A stretch of DNA of 64,000 bases. Origin: Chlorella sorokiniana (taxonomy: Eukaryota > Chlorophyta > Trebouxiophyceae > Chlorellales > Chlorellaceae). This document shows, in pieces, positions 56,458 to 64,000 of the stretch. A program made the translations under genes and the position numbers. The DNA lies in assembly GCA_025917655.1 (NCBI GenBank), contig CP084613.1, positions 4,628,501-4,692,500 on the forward strand, read 5' to 3'. A model generated the notes under the pieces. It had not been told where the DNA came from. It was given only the letters and a program-made list of their open reading frames with translations, and did no database searches. How positions within the stretch are numbered: position 1 is the first letter of the stretch; each line of letters starts with the position of its first letter.

Positions 56458-59400
56458 ATTAACGACGTGTTCAGTCGTCTATATGTACTCTGGTAAATGC
56501 AAAGCCAACACAAAGCTTCAAACATGGTAGCAACCCTGCTTCTTTACATGTTGCGTTAGGTGTGCATGTCGATCAGTACACGTAATCAAGTGTCCTTACT
56601 GGTGCACCAACGGTCTAGTAGAGGGATGTGGTGTTGCACTGCCCGGGTCGTCTAGGAATTATGAGCATGTGCCGGCCGATTAAGTGTCAGTTCAGAAGTT
56701 CCTGATTTTAGTATCCCCAATCATTTTATTGTGGGGTGGCCCAAAGGTGGAATGAATAAGGGGTGCAAAGGATATAGGCAATGTTGCACAATGAATTAGG
56801 GGAGACCAAGCCAACAAGTGGGATCATCATGCAACAACAAGCTAGGCTGATAGTTAGCTGTTTACAAAAAGGAACCAAACTAACGCATCACAAGTGCCTC
56901 AAGTTTGTTGACGAGTTGCTGGCATCCCTATAATGTCATTGAGGCTAAGCTTTCCAAACATCTGAACCGAGGGGTGAAGCAAAGAGGGCGCATCCGTATC
57001 TCTCACCACACACTACAAAGTCTCTCATCGCCGGTTGCAATGCGTCATTAAAAAACCAGAAAGGCAGCGAAACGCTAGAAGGTGTTCATGTCAGCATCCA
57101 TGAAGGTGTACTGTCTTGGTGTTGCAAGGGCTACACCGCTGCATAGCGCCAAAAGGATTAAGAACTTCATCATAAATGTCGCCACTTTGCTGTAGTACTT
57201 GTAAACCCTTCCTCACACACTCTTAGTTGTAAGAAGACTTAAACCATACATATAGCCTGAAAACAGAGGTATTATGTAGTAAGCGCGGGGCGGGCGGCCC
57301 CGCAGGGTGGGGGTTGGGGTGTGCAAAGTGGGGTGGGGTGCCACAGGGCAGCAAGGGTGCCAGTGGTGGTGCAGTGTGTGGGAGGGTAGGTGGAGGAGGT
57401 GGGCTGGCTGGGTGATAAGTGGAGGCAAAGGGAGGAGGGGGGGCACGAGCGGGACGCACGCGCGGGCCCAGGCATGATCAACCCACCTGCTGAGCCTTGT
57501 GGAGCAGCCTGGTTCTGCTGGGGCATGGTGTGCACCTGCACATGTGAGGAAGGTTGAGGTGTGTGAGGTCAGTGGGGCAATGTGCTGCATGGGTGCGACA
57601 TGCGACGCCGGCGCCCGCAGCGCTCCGGCGACGAGCGGAGGCTGGGTGCCCTGGCCCCACCAATCATGCTGCAGGCAAGCAGGAATGCAAGCCTGCAGCA
57701 TCCAGCTCATACTATAGGTCATGCTGGTGGTTGCTGGCAGGTTTGCCAGGCCAGCGTCACACCAGGCTTGGAATGCGCAGCGCACGTCAGTGCAGTGCAG
57801 GGAGTGCTGAGCAGCAGCAGACTTCCCCAGGCGACCCCCGCACCTCGGCCGGCGGCTGCGGGGATCGACTATGGCAGCTGTCGTGGGGCGGTTTGAAGGG
57901 CGATGCAGGCAACAACGGTCGGTTTCAGGGCTGGGGAAGTCGGTGCCCTCAGCACGGCGTCGCTGCGCTTGCTGGCACGCGCATTGTGCTGGGATGAAGG
58001 GAGAGGTGTGCCTGGGCGGTGCAGGCGCGTCCCGTGGTGCGGGTGGACTGTGGTTTGGGCGGGGGAGCGAGGGCAAGGATGGGGGACCTTCAAACGATGC
58101 AGATGGACGTTGCGAACGAGGATTGAGGGCGCACGCTTGTTGGGAGGCGTGGTCCAAAACAGCCCTGGTGGGGTGTACCTGCAGGTACTCCATCCGGCCC
58201 GAGCCGTTGGAAGGGCGAGCGGCTGCTGGAAAACGTTTGTGCGAGTGTGTGATCTCGATCTGAGGGGCGCCCCGATAGCCTGTTGGCCTCCAGCTGCCGC
58301 CAGCCCCAGCTGTGGTACACCCAGCTGTTGTACCTCTGCTGGAGGGGGCTGGCCGGCGCAGGCCATCCTTCCTCTCCTGCAACGCTTCTCCGTATTTAAT
58401 GCGTCGTTTGCCACCTGCACCCCGCCCGGCTGTCGCCCCCTTCGCCAGGCGATGGCCGGTTAGTTCCTATTTGTACATAGCCCTGCGCGCCTTCAGAACT
58501 CTAGAGGTGTACGTCAGACGCCTAATGGCGCAGCGCAGCCGTGCGACCGTGCAGAGCAGAACCGGGCTTGGCACTCCTCTGCCACTGCTGGCGGCACTGC
58601 CTGCGCAGCATGGGACGTGCTGCTGTGGTTGTGTGGGTGACATGCTGGAGGTCAGGCATTCATGGATGCCATCACAATGGTGTATGGTTGCCAGGATCAG
58701 GTTTGCAGCCTGGATGAACAGCCCATGGAGCCTGGGGAGGTTTCCCTCGCCGCGGGCGCGCGAGGCTTTTGCGGGAATGTTGCGCGCATGTCGTCAGACT
58801 TCAGGCAGGAGTGTTCAGTGATGGTTAGATGGCCCAGTACCTGCACTTTGTGTTTGGTTGAGCTGTGGTGGTGTTTGTTGTGAGGATGTCAGCTGTGGCA
58901 ACAAAGAAGTATGGTGTGGGGAGTGGTTGGCTCCACACGCACTGCGGGGGGGCGTCGCATACGCTTGCCTTCAAGGTGCAGCTGGCATGTTTTGCAGGTT
59001 GACAAGCTGCAGTGTGTAGCTGTATGCTGGTGCATCAGTGGTGATGAGTTTCTCAAGCTGTGCAAGTTGTGGCAGAGGTTGGACAAGACTGTGCCATGGT
59101 GCTCAGTTGTCAGCGGGCACCGAAAGGAGTCATGATATGATAGAAGTGCAGCCATGGTGCCTCTCAATGGTCTAGAAGCTTTTGCTGGCTTGTTTCTTCA
59201 TGTTCTGTAAGGATGAGCAAGTATCTGCAGTTAATCTCACCAGAAAGATGTGACTGTGAGCTGGACCAATTTTTCAGTGAAACTGTGTCACACTGCTGGA
59301 TGGGCAGAGATGGGTACACCAAGTTCAAGGCAGATTCTAATAGGCTGCACACTTACTGTATGCTAGTACAGTACAGGAAAGCTTCCTGCAAAGTTACAGC

Positions 59401-59837
59401 TCGGTATTGCACCATTTGGATGTAGTATGTCATGTCATTGTGTGTAATCAAGTGTGTTTCTGCCTCAGTCTTGACATGCTCTGATAGCATTGCACCACCT
59501 CCAGGACTGGTTTTGCAGGTTTAAAAGCTTGTCCAGTCTTGCTTTGGTGTATGCAAGGTGAATGCAAGCTTGGAGCTCAGTATTAACACCATTTAGATGT
59601 GAGTTCACATGATGGGGTGCTGCCTGCAAAGTGCAGCAGCACCACAGGGTGAGCAGATTTCACAGAACCACCTCCAGGGCTCATAACAATCGACAGCAAG
59701 TTTCCCCTAGCTCAAATACGTGTACAATGGCTGGTCATAAACTTTCAGCACGTAAATGCACGATTTGATGCCAGCATTGATGTGGCTGACCTTGAGTTTC
59801 CCTGCTGCCAGCCTGCACGGTCATGCCTCCCCGCCAG
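56458..59837. other. Gene-poor region with no supported coding sequence
   Basis: After the RUNKEL-like stop the sequence is AT-richer (56460-57250), then GC-rich again (57280-58460), then of intermediate composition (58460-59840). TGTAA occurs near 57195 and 57225, too far for a sure assignment to the RUNKEL-like transcript. The longest open frame (minus, 57213-58382) is Pro/His/Arg-rich without domain, splice or codon signals and looks like chance. The 58460-59840 part has many TGCA/GCAAG words and short phrases of coding-like texture and could be an eroded transposon. Confidence 0.35.
57283..57345 (+). repeat. G-run tract with GC-rich palindrome
   Basis: Runs of GGGG follow a GCGGGGC...GCCCCGC inverted pair near 57285-57305. 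They lie outside any supported gene. Confidence 0.45.
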
Positions 59838-60052
59838 AGCGCCGATTTCGCTCGAACAAAGGCCGGATCCAATGTTTTTGCTCATGAAAACATAAGAATC
59901 GAGCGAGTCTGACGCGATTGGAGCAGGTCGGTGCCAACATGTTGTCAGTGCAGGGAAGTGCAAGTTCGCCAGCGCGCCGTTTCCGCTCGAACAAAGGCCG
60001 GAAACAAGGTTTTTGCTCATGAAAACATAAGAATCGAGCGAGTCTGACGCGA
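59838..60052 (+). repeat. Two direct copies of an ~80-bp repeat, 135-bp period
   Basis: Copy 1 is 59838-59917 and copy 2 is 59971-60052. Both contain CTCGAACAAAGGCCGG (starting at 59851 and 59986) and both end with a conserved block that includes TTTTTGCTCATGAAAACATA and GAATCGAGCGAGTCTGACGC. The spacer between copies is unique. Only a few positions differ between copies, so the duplication is recent or selected. Nothing similar was seen elsewhere in the window. Confidence 0.85.
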
Positions 60053-60420
60053 ACGCAGCAACTTGGTTTCACACTTTTTCAGTGGTCAGCTGGTGGTGCT
60101 GGGGCAGCAGAACAGCATGGCTTTGTTGTCAGGCGGTGGATTTCGATGCTGTAACTTGCAGGCCAGCCCTGGAACACTTTTGAGCAGCATCCACGAAAGG
60201 AAGCACGTGGATTGGTCCTCTATTCACCACTCTGCACTTGCACCTGCACTTGCACCCCCATCAGGCCAGAGTACACAGCATAAGTTTGCTGCCAGGAGGT
60301 GCATTGTTGGCCTGAAAATTGCATGCCCTTGCTGCAGGGGTGGTGCAGCATGCATGCAGCTGAGTGCAGGCACAATGTGCAAGGGTAGCCCATGCAAGAC
60401 CAGCTTGGGCCCTCCTGGCA

Positions 60421-60439
60421 CCCCTTGCCATGCAAGGGG
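60421..60439 (+). repeat. Perfect hairpin, 8-bp stem
   Basis: CCCCTTGC, a three-base loop, then GCAAGGGG. Confidence 0.6.
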
Positions 60440-60541
60440 GCATGGCTGTGTGGGTTGCAGATGGCAGGCTGCATGCCTCCACTGATGGCACATTGGGTCC
60501 CCCAGCACCCCACGTGCATCATTGCCACTGGTACTGCAGTT

Positions 60542-60564
60542 GTACTGCAGTGCCCCTGCAGTAC
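60542..60564 (+). repeat. Perfect hairpin, 9-bp stem
   Basis: GTACTGCAG, a five-base loop, then CTGCAGTAC. A further direct copy of GTACTGCAG lies at 60531-60539. Confidence 0.65.
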
Positions 60565-61095
60565 AGGCCCCCAGCAGGGCAGCCAGGGGGCTTCCACCCA
60601 CTCCCTCAGAACAGTGGGCTCTTGGGGTGCACCCTCCCACCACCACCTCCCACACACCCTCACTGACACGCCCACAAAATAACATTTTGCATAGCATGGC
60701 ATTCTGCCACATGCAAAACACACTTTGGGCTCCAATGCACACCCACCCCAGTGCATGCCCCTCTGAACTCACCAAAAAACACTCTCACAACCCACAACAC
60801 ACACCCCCACACCCACAACACCACAACTAACACCCACACCAAAGCATCAACCATTCCAACACACGCCGACACACGCCGCCGCCACCACCAACCCCCCAAC
60901 CACCCTCCCTGAAAAAGTGCCAGCTCATTGAAAACGTGATGTGCTTGCAATGTTTACACTCACAAACAATCAAAAACACTCAGCAACACTCACAGACACT
61001 CAGCAAAGCACTCCAGCACCACTCCAGCTCGCGCACGCACCGCCGCTCAGCCGCCCATCCGCCACATGCTCCAACTCAGCCCATCAGCCTCACCC

Positions 61096-62188
61096 TCACC
61101 CTCCCTTTCCTAAGCTGCTGGGGGTGTTCTTGCCATACTTGTGGCTCCTGGGCTGCACACATCTCCACTTCTTCGTCCAAAACCTCTGGCTCACATTGAA
61201 CGCGTCGTCCGCCACCGCCACGTGCCACGGAGCCGCGCATGACTTGTCATGGCACTCACCCAGATGGGCCACAATGTACCTCTTCTTCCTCCTCCCACCC
61301 CTGGGGCCCCTTGGCCTTGCATCAAAGGGACACTGGGACAGCTCTGCAGGGGCACCAGGCCTCTGCTCACACACTGCCGCCGCCGCGGCAGCGCCGCCGC
61401 CGCTGCCGCCGCCAACATAACACGACGCTCACCGGTGTACCCATTCTTCATGTACGCCACCAAAACGTGCAGGCTGACGTGAACACGAAGCTTCGACTCC
61501 GCCTGCGACACGCCAACCGCCTCAGAAAGCACAAACCGCTGGAGTACTGCTGCCACGTACCGCTCACCTGCGCTCGGGGCTTCGTCCAAGCGCCCCGTTT
61601 GCCCTCCTTCAGCGCCAGGACGCCGTAAAGGTCGAATTGCAGGTACGCGTACCCGTCCGGGTTGCGGCTCAGCACCACCACCCGCCGGTCCGGCGGCCGG
61701 GCGCTGCCGCCAGGCAGCGCCCGCACCTCTGCAAAGTTCTCAGCAAGCCTCCTCTTGCAGGCTGGCAGCACACACCCACTGTAGATGTCATCCTCCTTCT
61801 TCCAGTGCATGCTGTCCTTCACCAGCTTGGGCCACTGCAGCCAGCTGTCCTCCGCCGACGCCGCCGACAGCGCCACGCCGTGCCCGGCATCGACGCCCAA
61901 CAAGGTGAAGGACTGCAGCTGCTGGGAGCCCTTGAAGCAGGGGTGCAGCACATGCCTCACCACATCCTCCCACTCAGACTTGCTGACCCTCACAACTGAC
62001 AGCTGCCTGCTGCCATCCTCCAGCACTGTGCACCTCAGCAAGCTGGGCGCCTCGTCCGAAAGGCACCCCAAACCCAGCTTGTCCTCGTACTTCTGCCTGC
62101 CTGGCCCCCCCTCCTGGCTGTCACCCTCTTCCCTTTCTGCCTGGTGGTCACCATGATTCTGCAGTGCATGCACAGGGGTTGGGATCAC
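61096..62188 (-). CDS. Mobile-element protein with His-Cys-box-like nuclease motif
   Basis: Three exons join in phase: 62188-61568, 61502-61433 (70 bases) and 61343-61096, giving 312 residues. The N-terminal 200 residues are of unknown fold (SQLSVVRVSKSEWEDVV-like helices, then RRVVVLSRNPDGYAYLQFDL). The second exon reads AESKLRVHVSLHVLVAYMKN. The third begins ELSQCPFDARPRG, has a basic patch RRKKRYIVAHL, and then the motif HLGECHDKSCAAPWHV with an Asn further on in VADDAFN. The spacing C-x4-C-x4-H-x8-N after a His-Leu pair is that of the His-Cys box (beta-beta-alpha-metal) nucleases such as I-PpoI. The His of HL would be the base, the Asn the metal ligand, and the Cys/His the zinc site. The stop at 61096 follows TPSSL-type sequence. 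The start is uncertain: an acceptor-like CTGCAG at about 62160 suggests an upstream exon. Nuclease function is inferred from the motif only. Confidence 0.6.
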
Positions 62189-62389
62189 ATGGGAGGGTCA
62201 GCACATGGGGAGAGGGGGAGCAAAAAATAGTGGAGCTAAGGGAGCCTGGGGCCTGCGCCTGCGCAACGGCGCAGGCACAGAATGCCTAAAAGCCTAACTA
62301 GAAAAAAATAAAATATCTGAGGAAGGAGCTAGGGGCTCATGCTCTGTGCAGAATCATAGTCTTCAGAAGAGGAGGAGCAAAGGTCAATC

Positions 62390-64000
62390 TCAATGTCCCA
62401 GCCCTCCTCCTCCTCCGCCGCCGCCCCGCCACTCCGGCTCCGCCTTCACCGCCACCAAGCCCGGCTGCTGCTGCTGCAGCTGGGCAAGCTGCTGCACAAC
62501 TTGGGACTGGAACTGCTGCTGCTGCTGGTGCATCTCCACAAGCTGCTGCCTCAGCTCTGCTGGCTTGGGCTCCAGGGCTGGCACCAGGGGCAGCGCAGCA
62601 GGCGCCGCACCCGCCAGCTCCGCCAGCGGGTCCACCGCAGCCGTGCCAGCCTGCTGCAAGGCCACATGCCTGTAGTGCTCCATGTGCAGCTGGGACACCC
62701 TCATCTGCTCCAGCTTGAAGGTGGGGAAGTAGGTGGCCATCCACTGGTACAAGGAGTTGCCCATCCCCCACGCCGCCGACTCGTTGTCCGGGCCAGCGCC
62801 GCCGCGCGACATGCGGTCAGTGATGAACACATGCCTCCCAAACTTGGGGCACAGCCTGACCCACTTCTGCAATGGGGGAGCAGGCAGGGTGGGGTGGTCA
62901 GGCTTGGGCATGCAAGTGGATGCTTGCAAGGGAGGGGCTGGCCGGCGCTGCGCCGGTACCGCTTCCGTACCGCAGCAGCGCACCCACCCACCTTGAAGAT
63001 CCTGGTGACTGAGGAGGAGCTCATGGGGACACCACCATCCAAGGTGCAGAAGGCTGTCTTGGTGCCCTGCACACACACCAAGGGGGCTGGCTCAGAAAAG
63101 CACCACGAGCGCGGCACCGCACACGCCCCCGCAAGCCCGCCCCGCACCTCAGCGGCGATCACGCCGTAGCAGTGGCTGAACCACACATCCATCCAGATGA
63201 GCATGGAGGGGGGAAGGGGTAGGTGATGGGGGCCCTGTCCCTCTGGCTGCTGTGGTCAGAGGTCTTGTGGTGGGGGATGAAGAGGGAGTAACCGCCACCA
63301 GGCGTGCGCAGAATGCCGTTGCCGCGGCAGCGCGACACGCGGCAGCTGCCCATGGGGCAGCTCTCAGGCCAATGGTCAGGGTGGCACAGGGAGGTGAACC
63401 ACTCTGGCCTCCAGGGTGTCAGATGGGCCATCCAGCAGCAGAGCATGAGGCCCTTGCCCCAGGCCTCGGCCGCGGCGCGCACAGCGGGGTGGCCGGGATG
63501 CGTCTCGAACAGGCGCAGCTCTGGGAACTTGAAGGAAGTGGAGGTGACAGTGCTGGTGGCAGGGGAGCCCCCAATTGCATCTGGAAGGGCCTGCAAGGGA
63601 GGGGGAGGGGCAGGCAGCCACATGGGTGGGAGGGGGAGGCACAGCGTACAGCGCACGTACATCGCCCGTACCGCCACCAGTACAGCAGCCCCAGCAAGGT
63701 GCAGAAGGCTGGCACCCACCTTCATGAGCTCCACAGCCTTCTTCTTCTCCTCCTCAATGAAGGCAATGAGCTCAGGGGCATCCTTCCACTTGGCCCCCTC
63801 CATCAGTGCCTTGTAGTCGAACGGCACGTGGCGGCAGATTTTGCGCAGCTGGTGCTTGAGGCTGGCAAGCTGGCTCTCCTGCTCCTTGAACTGCCTCTGC
63901 TTGGCTGCACCATAGGGCTGGGGGCTGAGGCCTTGAGGAAGTGCAGCAGCCTGAGGACAGAGTGGCAGGTCTTGGCCATGTAGTCGCGCCGCGCCGCCTC
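62390..64000 (-). CDS. Tyrosine-recombinase-like protein (Crypton/YR element), truncated by the window edge
   Basis: Four exons can be read: 64000-63720, 63590-63148, 63066-62992 and 62866-62390; the N-terminus lies beyond 64000. Exon a: RRDYMAKTCHSVLRLLHFLK, then a basic helical part KEQESQLASLKHQLRKI and FDYKALMEGAKWKDAPELIA, as in a SAM-like core-binding domain. Exon b: WGKGLMLCCWMAHLTPWRPE WFTSL (candidate first catalytic Arg) and GGGYSLFIPHHKTSD (candidate Lys), then PITYPFPP and LIWMDVWFSHCYGVIAAE. Exon c: GTKTAFCTLDGGVPMSSSSV. Exon d: FGRHVFITDRMSRGG (candidate His and Arg), ESAAWGMGNSLYQWMATYFP (candidate nucleophile Tyr), then a Gln-rich tail. The AAxxMGNSxxxW...Y pattern is what I associate with algal YR transposons. 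The frame slips near 63215 and 63920. The tail after the Tyr is long. An alternative is a domesticated recombinase. Confidence 0.6.

Follow-up and report, generated by a model that had tools for sequence, protein, structure and literature searches.

Gene content of the locus

We analysed a 64,000-nucleotide stretch of Chlorella sorokiniana DNA (C3:4628501-4692500; hereafter the window), taken from a genome of 38.8 Mb in 15 contigs and stopping where contig C3 stops. Two contigs are organellar, C14 (with cox1) and C15 (with chlN and a ccsA-like gene), and TTTAGGG-type telomeres open all 13 non-organelle contigs. The last part of the window, 61096-64000, holds a pair of coding parts that make up the outer half of a repeat of ~7.8 kb with which the contig ends. 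This C3 copy occupies 57270-64000 (no strand assigned), a region common to the right ends of C4, C8, C9 and C11; its inner boundary was taken from alignment, and the contig end at 64000 cuts the copy.

Two adjacent minus-strand genes, 201 bases apart, had been described here in an earlier note. The open reading frames (ORFs) at 62390-63076 and 61448-62188 are indeed so spaced, but they are pieces of genes rather than whole ones: read by eye, the coding parts consist of exons with GT..AG introns between them, oriented with their 5' ends toward the telomere. TGTAA is the green-algal poly(A) signal. In none of the five long copies are the two parts separated by a sense-strand TGTAA, and in four of them the first such signal follows shortly after the second part, so it is possible that both belong to one transcription unit.

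The inner half of the element (57270-61090, no strand assigned) is without a convincing gene by ORF survey and Pfam scan; for the ten ORFs scanned, Pfam returned just two weak matches, both to domains of unknown function. It contains a 119-base direct repeat (window about 59840-60055), the two units of which start 139 bases apart and are 83% alike in L011:4253-4510. Reading by eye, we saw a short inverted repeat inside each unit.

A recombinase-like part

The first coding part, on the minus strand, extends from 62390 beyond the window. Part of a core-binding region (63924-64000, frame 0), fuller in the C8 copy, runs past the contig end and is separated by a frame break from a linker exon (63720-63923). 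The exon at 63210-63590 carries the motifs PWRPEW and HHKTS, whose Arg and Lys we take to be catalytic, and a frame break at a run of C divides it from the exon SMLIWMDVWFSHCYGVIAAE (63148-63207). The exon GTKTAFCTLDGG..RIFK (62992-63066) lies inside the profile match described below, and the one at 62390-62866 has a further candidate catalytic Arg (KFGRHVF), the motif MGNS, a candidate catalytic Tyr (ATYFP) and a Gln-rich tail. The three candidate residues R, R and Y are identical in three aligned copies. Two places at which the catalytic region would have His read K and N in the element, with K-x-x-R where H-x-x-R is expected.

By the earlier note, failure of profile searches to recover a recombinase fold would refute the idea, and the outcome differed with the type of search. 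Pfam, PHROGs and NCBIfam gave no match, and PDB sequences yielded a single meaningless one (E = 1.9) and none with a profile. Profile-profile comparison with E. coli XerD and 129 relatives did match: the joined algal protein scored 29.9 (P = 0.00094), and the catalytic part alone, from two sequences, gave P = 0.00054, at an HHsuite probability of 22-30%. The alignment keeps its register as far as the second catalytic Arg, where KFGRHVF falls on HVLRHAF. None of 60 shuffled sequences (maximum 23.4) or 96 other ORFs (maximum 22.1) scored as well, and the reversed protein reached 19.3. An AlphaFold model of the recombinase piece from the C4 copy (312 amino acids, five-row alignment) was uninformative (pLDDT 35.9, pTM 0.22). 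We regard these comparisons as support, short of proof, for a resemblance of the first coding part to XerD-like tyrosine recombinases (YRs).

In the C8 copy, the recombinase frame closes with an acidic stretch (EEEEGWDIEIDLCSSSSEDYDSAQ) resembling a SUMO-interacting motif; the C3 and C11 copies are in another frame there.

A nuclease-like part

The second coding part begins in the minus-strand ORF 61448-62188, whose frames were compared in the selection simulation below. A His-Cys-box motif had been attributed to this ORF; the motif is present, but it sits in a separate minus-strand ORF at 61096-61374, found in all five long copies, which matches the Pfam family zf-His_Me_endon (PF05551) at E = 3.1e-5 and 24.6 bits, under the curated cut-off of 27. 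With the nuclease pieces joined, the same family gave 8.3e-5 for the C3 copy and 0.053 for the C8 copy, and a scan of the whole genome with PF05551 matched two of the five copies, none above the cut-off. Neither PDB nor PHROGs returned a match.

The exon with this motif is 74-95% identical to that of C3 in the other four copies, and its insertions and deletions are multiples of three. Residues of the zinc loop, AHL..C..C...H together with an Asn, are kept in C3, C4, C8 and C9, and the C11 DNA agrees with C3 there. We take their roles from I-PpoI, for which we also drew on PMC9587614. On this likeness, the second part resembles an I-PpoI-type His-Me motif and would belong to a putative nuclease.

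Two other matches were set aside. One, to the nuclease on a phage contig (L037, E = 2e-4), was taken as chance, since the surrounding region looks like a bacterial phage and shows no trace of a gene of this type; the other, inside C7 (E = 0.0025, 32% identity, one stop), is in low-complexity sequence. A search of viral contigs and phages found no relatives. Nor did Rfam report a group I intron, either in the window at 57000-64000 (gathering threshold) or in L011 (E up to 0.1), and with no self-splicing intron found in this way we do not read the gene as a group I intron homing endonuclease.

The earlier note had proposed a pairing of a YR with a His-Cys nuclease. Recombinase-like and I-PpoI-type His-Me-like parts do adjoin, in one order in all five long copies. 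As all five belong to one family in one genome, the common order does not count as independent evidence. A Crypton-type element, which the note had also considered, would have the recombinase as its only enzyme; here the His-Me part adjoins it, and we do not claim the element as a Crypton.

Copies at chromosome ends

The repeat was detected at seven of the 26 chromosome ends. Five are long (C3, C4, C8, C9 and C11), that on C5 was traced over 3.3 kb, and a remnant of ~170 bp remains on C10. The C4, C8 and C9 copies align over about 7.8 kb, not counting the telomere array. A 2.5-kb query from the inner half recovered the same five long copies, C5 and the ~170-base match at the end of C10. The C5 copy was followed to 224 bases before the contig end; its true end is uncertain, because the C8 match to this query is likewise interrupted where the C5 match stops. 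A query from the outer 0.93 kb matched C8, C4 and C9, and C11 over 736 of its 931 bases; contig C3 stops before that segment. We read five right ends and 13 starts directly and searched the other eight right ends; the repeat counts are lower bounds.

All seven copies share one orientation, and each occupies the right end of its contig; the element is absent from all 13 contig starts read. If contig orientation is arbitrary, the chance of an all-right-end placement is 1 in 64. Apart from the element, a comparison of 20 contig ends, including two organellar ones, showed no common stretch of at least 200 bases at the cut-off used, and a genome-wide search found no other strong match away from these seven ends. 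There are weak internal matches on C11, C12 and C2; the one at C12:339345-339571 (67% identity over ~190 bases near the element's inner end, E = 1.8e-13) may reflect a relic or composition.

Element ends and telomeric junctions

As the earlier note had anticipated, the ends of the element can be defined, here by alignment of the repeated copies. The inner boundary is identical to the base in C4, C8 and C9 (AGCACTGAAAATCACC), and C3 and C11 have a common one of their own (TATTATGTAGTAAGC). TTTAGG occurs no more than 15 bases inside this boundary in four of the five long copies, with ACAGAGG in C3, the inner flank of which is not telomeric; more than 150 bases away, the inner flanks of the copies contain a single TTTAGG in a total of 7,442 bases. 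On the other side, C4, C8 and C9 end in CCTAAACATGCTTTACGCGG followed by telomere, and C11 is without the last ~0.2 kb of the element and is capped by telomere. The terminal TTTAGGG array directly adjoins the element in all four copies with an assembled outer end, and copies are shortened on the telomere side.

Some chromosome ends also carry a palindrome, TTTAGGTTTT-N-AAAACCTAAA (spacer 8-22), which occurs at five places in the 38.8-Mb genome, all of them chromosome ends outside the window (C4:380-416, C7:317-352, C9:361-397, C13:336-370 and C9:2245411-2245446; control, 0). A looser form is found at six places, again all at chromosome ends, and a regular expression found the palindrome at 7 of the 18 nuclear ends read and nowhere in 117 kb of interior sequence. 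We considered it as an insertion site and rejected it, as the palindromic module begins 60-77 bp inside the element boundary in C9 and C11 and is not the junction. The sequence CCTAAACATGC in the outer end of the element (L009, L011 and L012) resembles CCTAAACATGG, found in the chromosome-end module that C1 and C13 carry at their starts, as if the unit had formerly ended in such a module.

Exchange between chromosome ends

The C3 copy is a recombinant. Of its informative sites, 98% are C8/C9-like on the telomere side but 8.5% in the inward part, which is C11-like. The changeover falls between alignment columns 2740 and 2947; over 557 sites the statistic is 9.26, and 500 permutations gave at most 2.08. 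C9 and C4 contain smaller mosaic runs. From the recombinant and these runs we conclude that chromosome ends exchange element sequence; that the element's own enzymes cause this exchange is something we infer. The arrangement, with an inner telomeric tract in 4/5 copies, an outer telomere in 4/4 resolved ones and exchange between ends in the form of the recombinant C3, is a Y'-like layout.

Selection and decay

Comparison of the C8 and C11 copies over 775 codons (249 substitutions) shows past purifying selection on both coding parts. Amino-acid changes number 141, compared with 170.4 (s.d. 6.7) under neutral simulation, and none of 2,000 simulations gave so low a count (P = 0.001 for the recombinase alone, 0.009 for the nuclease gene). 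One stop was seen where 7.6 were simulated (P = 0.009; 0.078 and 0.032 for the two parts, respectively). The choice of exons for the simulation relied in part on visual inspection for frames open in C8, a bias that falls more heavily on the stops than on the amino-acid changes. The signal is not seen with simpler measures: no window had codon-position periodicity of substitutions at p < 0.02, per-exon dN/dS between C8 and C11 ranged from 0.41 to 5.5 (exceeding 1 in one short exon), and the pooled pN/pS of 0.69 was no better than the 0.71 of the +1 frame.

The reading frame is broken in every recombinase copy as assembled. One break in a run of C is common to five copies, and a second is present in C3, C4, C8 and C9 and absent from C11; the core-binding part has further deletions in C4 (5 nt) and C11 (1 nt), and in C4, C9 and C11 indels of 1-2 nt also affect the first exon of the nuclease gene. 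Breaks at single-base runs may be assembly errors. As they stand, the frame breaks count against current function, and the element is real and partly decayed.

Origin and spread of the element

Our preferred reading, to which we give about an even chance, is of a selfish element embedded in telomeres that spreads between chromosome ends in the manner of yeast Y'. On this view, telomeric DNA would first have been invaded by an ancestral unit; the simplest route would be that its tyrosine recombinase joined a circular form of the unit to a telomeric site of AGG(G) type. Breaks made by the nuclease in telomeric or subtelomeric DNA could then have helped the unit to be copied onto further ends through break-induced replication, and erosion and telomere healing would later have trimmed the copies. 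Because the recombinase reads as broken in each of the five long copies, host recombination has probably been the means of recent spread. Such an element accords with the confinement of strong matches to 7/26 ends, the inner tracts and outer joins, the recombinant C3 copy, the recombinase and His-Me likenesses and the signal of selection. It is weakened by the broken recombinase frames, the non-telomeric inner flank of C3, the useless AlphaFold model and a His-Me match below the Pfam cut-off that recurs in only 2/5 copies in the genome scan, and the same layout could arise without any enzyme encoded by the element.

The strongest alternative, which we judge appreciably less probable, is passive subtelomeric duplication, whereby an old chromosome tip was copied by recombination at telomeric repeats and both genes are decaying passengers with no role in spread. 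The single orientation, the telomeric tract that four of five copies have where their inner end joins the chromosome, the outer end common to C4, C8 and C9 and its likeness to half of a chromosome-end module are as this account would have them, as are the recombinant copy and the broken recombinase frames. It fits poorly with an inner end that is base-identical within each subfamily, even in C3 where a telomere-like tract is missing, with purifying selection on both genes between subfamilies, and with the other ends examined, which are without such a common block.

HeT-A attaches by its 3' end at the chromosome tip, its 5' end being cut short. A telomere-targeted, retroelement-like element of this fashion would explain why the 5' end of the genes faces the telomere and why the inner end is constant and the outer one variable, but chromosome-end erosion yields the same truncation and no reverse transcriptase appeared in the subset of ORFs scanned with Pfam (five in the outer half, ten in the inner half), and we hold it to be very improbable. 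We think just as little of a non-mobile host subtelomeric gene family, domesticated for telomere upkeep for example: position at chromosome ends and selection would suit it, but no copy was found at 19/26 ends, copies are truncated and every recombinase copy is frame-broken.

A bolder form of the selfish-element reading, which we consider doubtful, is that this is a eukaryotic mobile element of a new kind, specialised for chromosome ends: a single transcript would yield both a YR and an I-PpoI-type nuclease, and the two enzymes would recognise telomeric or end DNA, insert the unit between telomeric repeats and trigger its copying to other ends.

Comparison with known systems

Like Cryptons and other YR DNA transposons (PMC3212892), the element is a repeat of a eukaryotic genome that codes for a tyrosine-recombinase-like protein. 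Cryptons as described there encode only a YR, whereas here a nuclease part adjoins, the position is at chromosome ends and the two catalytic His places are K and N (PMC3212892). KolobokP pairs a mobility enzyme with an I-PpoI-like His-Me nuclease, as the algal element would, and its authors propose that cutting drives recombination; it differs in its DDD/E transposase, long terminal direct repeats, animal hosts and opposite-strand nuclease (PMC9587614). A YR and an endonuclease also meet in one element among polinton-like viruses, where a YR and an HNH endonuclease are reported together in only two instances; those are viruses, with a nuclease of another type than that of the algal element (PMC12220804). 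No virus genes were recognised among the element pieces scanned. With I-PpoI and group I intron homing endonucleases the element would have the His-Me zinc-loop motif in common, but it is without an Rfam match and its putative nuclease is paired with a recombinase-like part. Among open-licence literature searched by title and abstract start, we found no paper on the combination of a YR with an I-PpoI-type nuclease at chromosome ends.

Retroelements and the helicase-bearing Y' elements are the main known cases of selfish DNA bound to telomeres. The yeast Y' is a unit lying between telomeric tracts in one orientation and exchanged between ends, with a helicase gene and no known recombinase or nuclease. 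The algal element is like it in all three respects of layout, and differs in that it alone has recombinase-like and nuclease-like parts. If our reading of a YR and I-PpoI-type nuclease element is true, it would give selfish DNA a further means of colonising and reshuffling chromosome ends, and it would become testable whether enzymes of this sort can use telomeric repeats as targets. As it stands, the element is an unusual pairing of coding parts whose spread resembles that of Y' elements.
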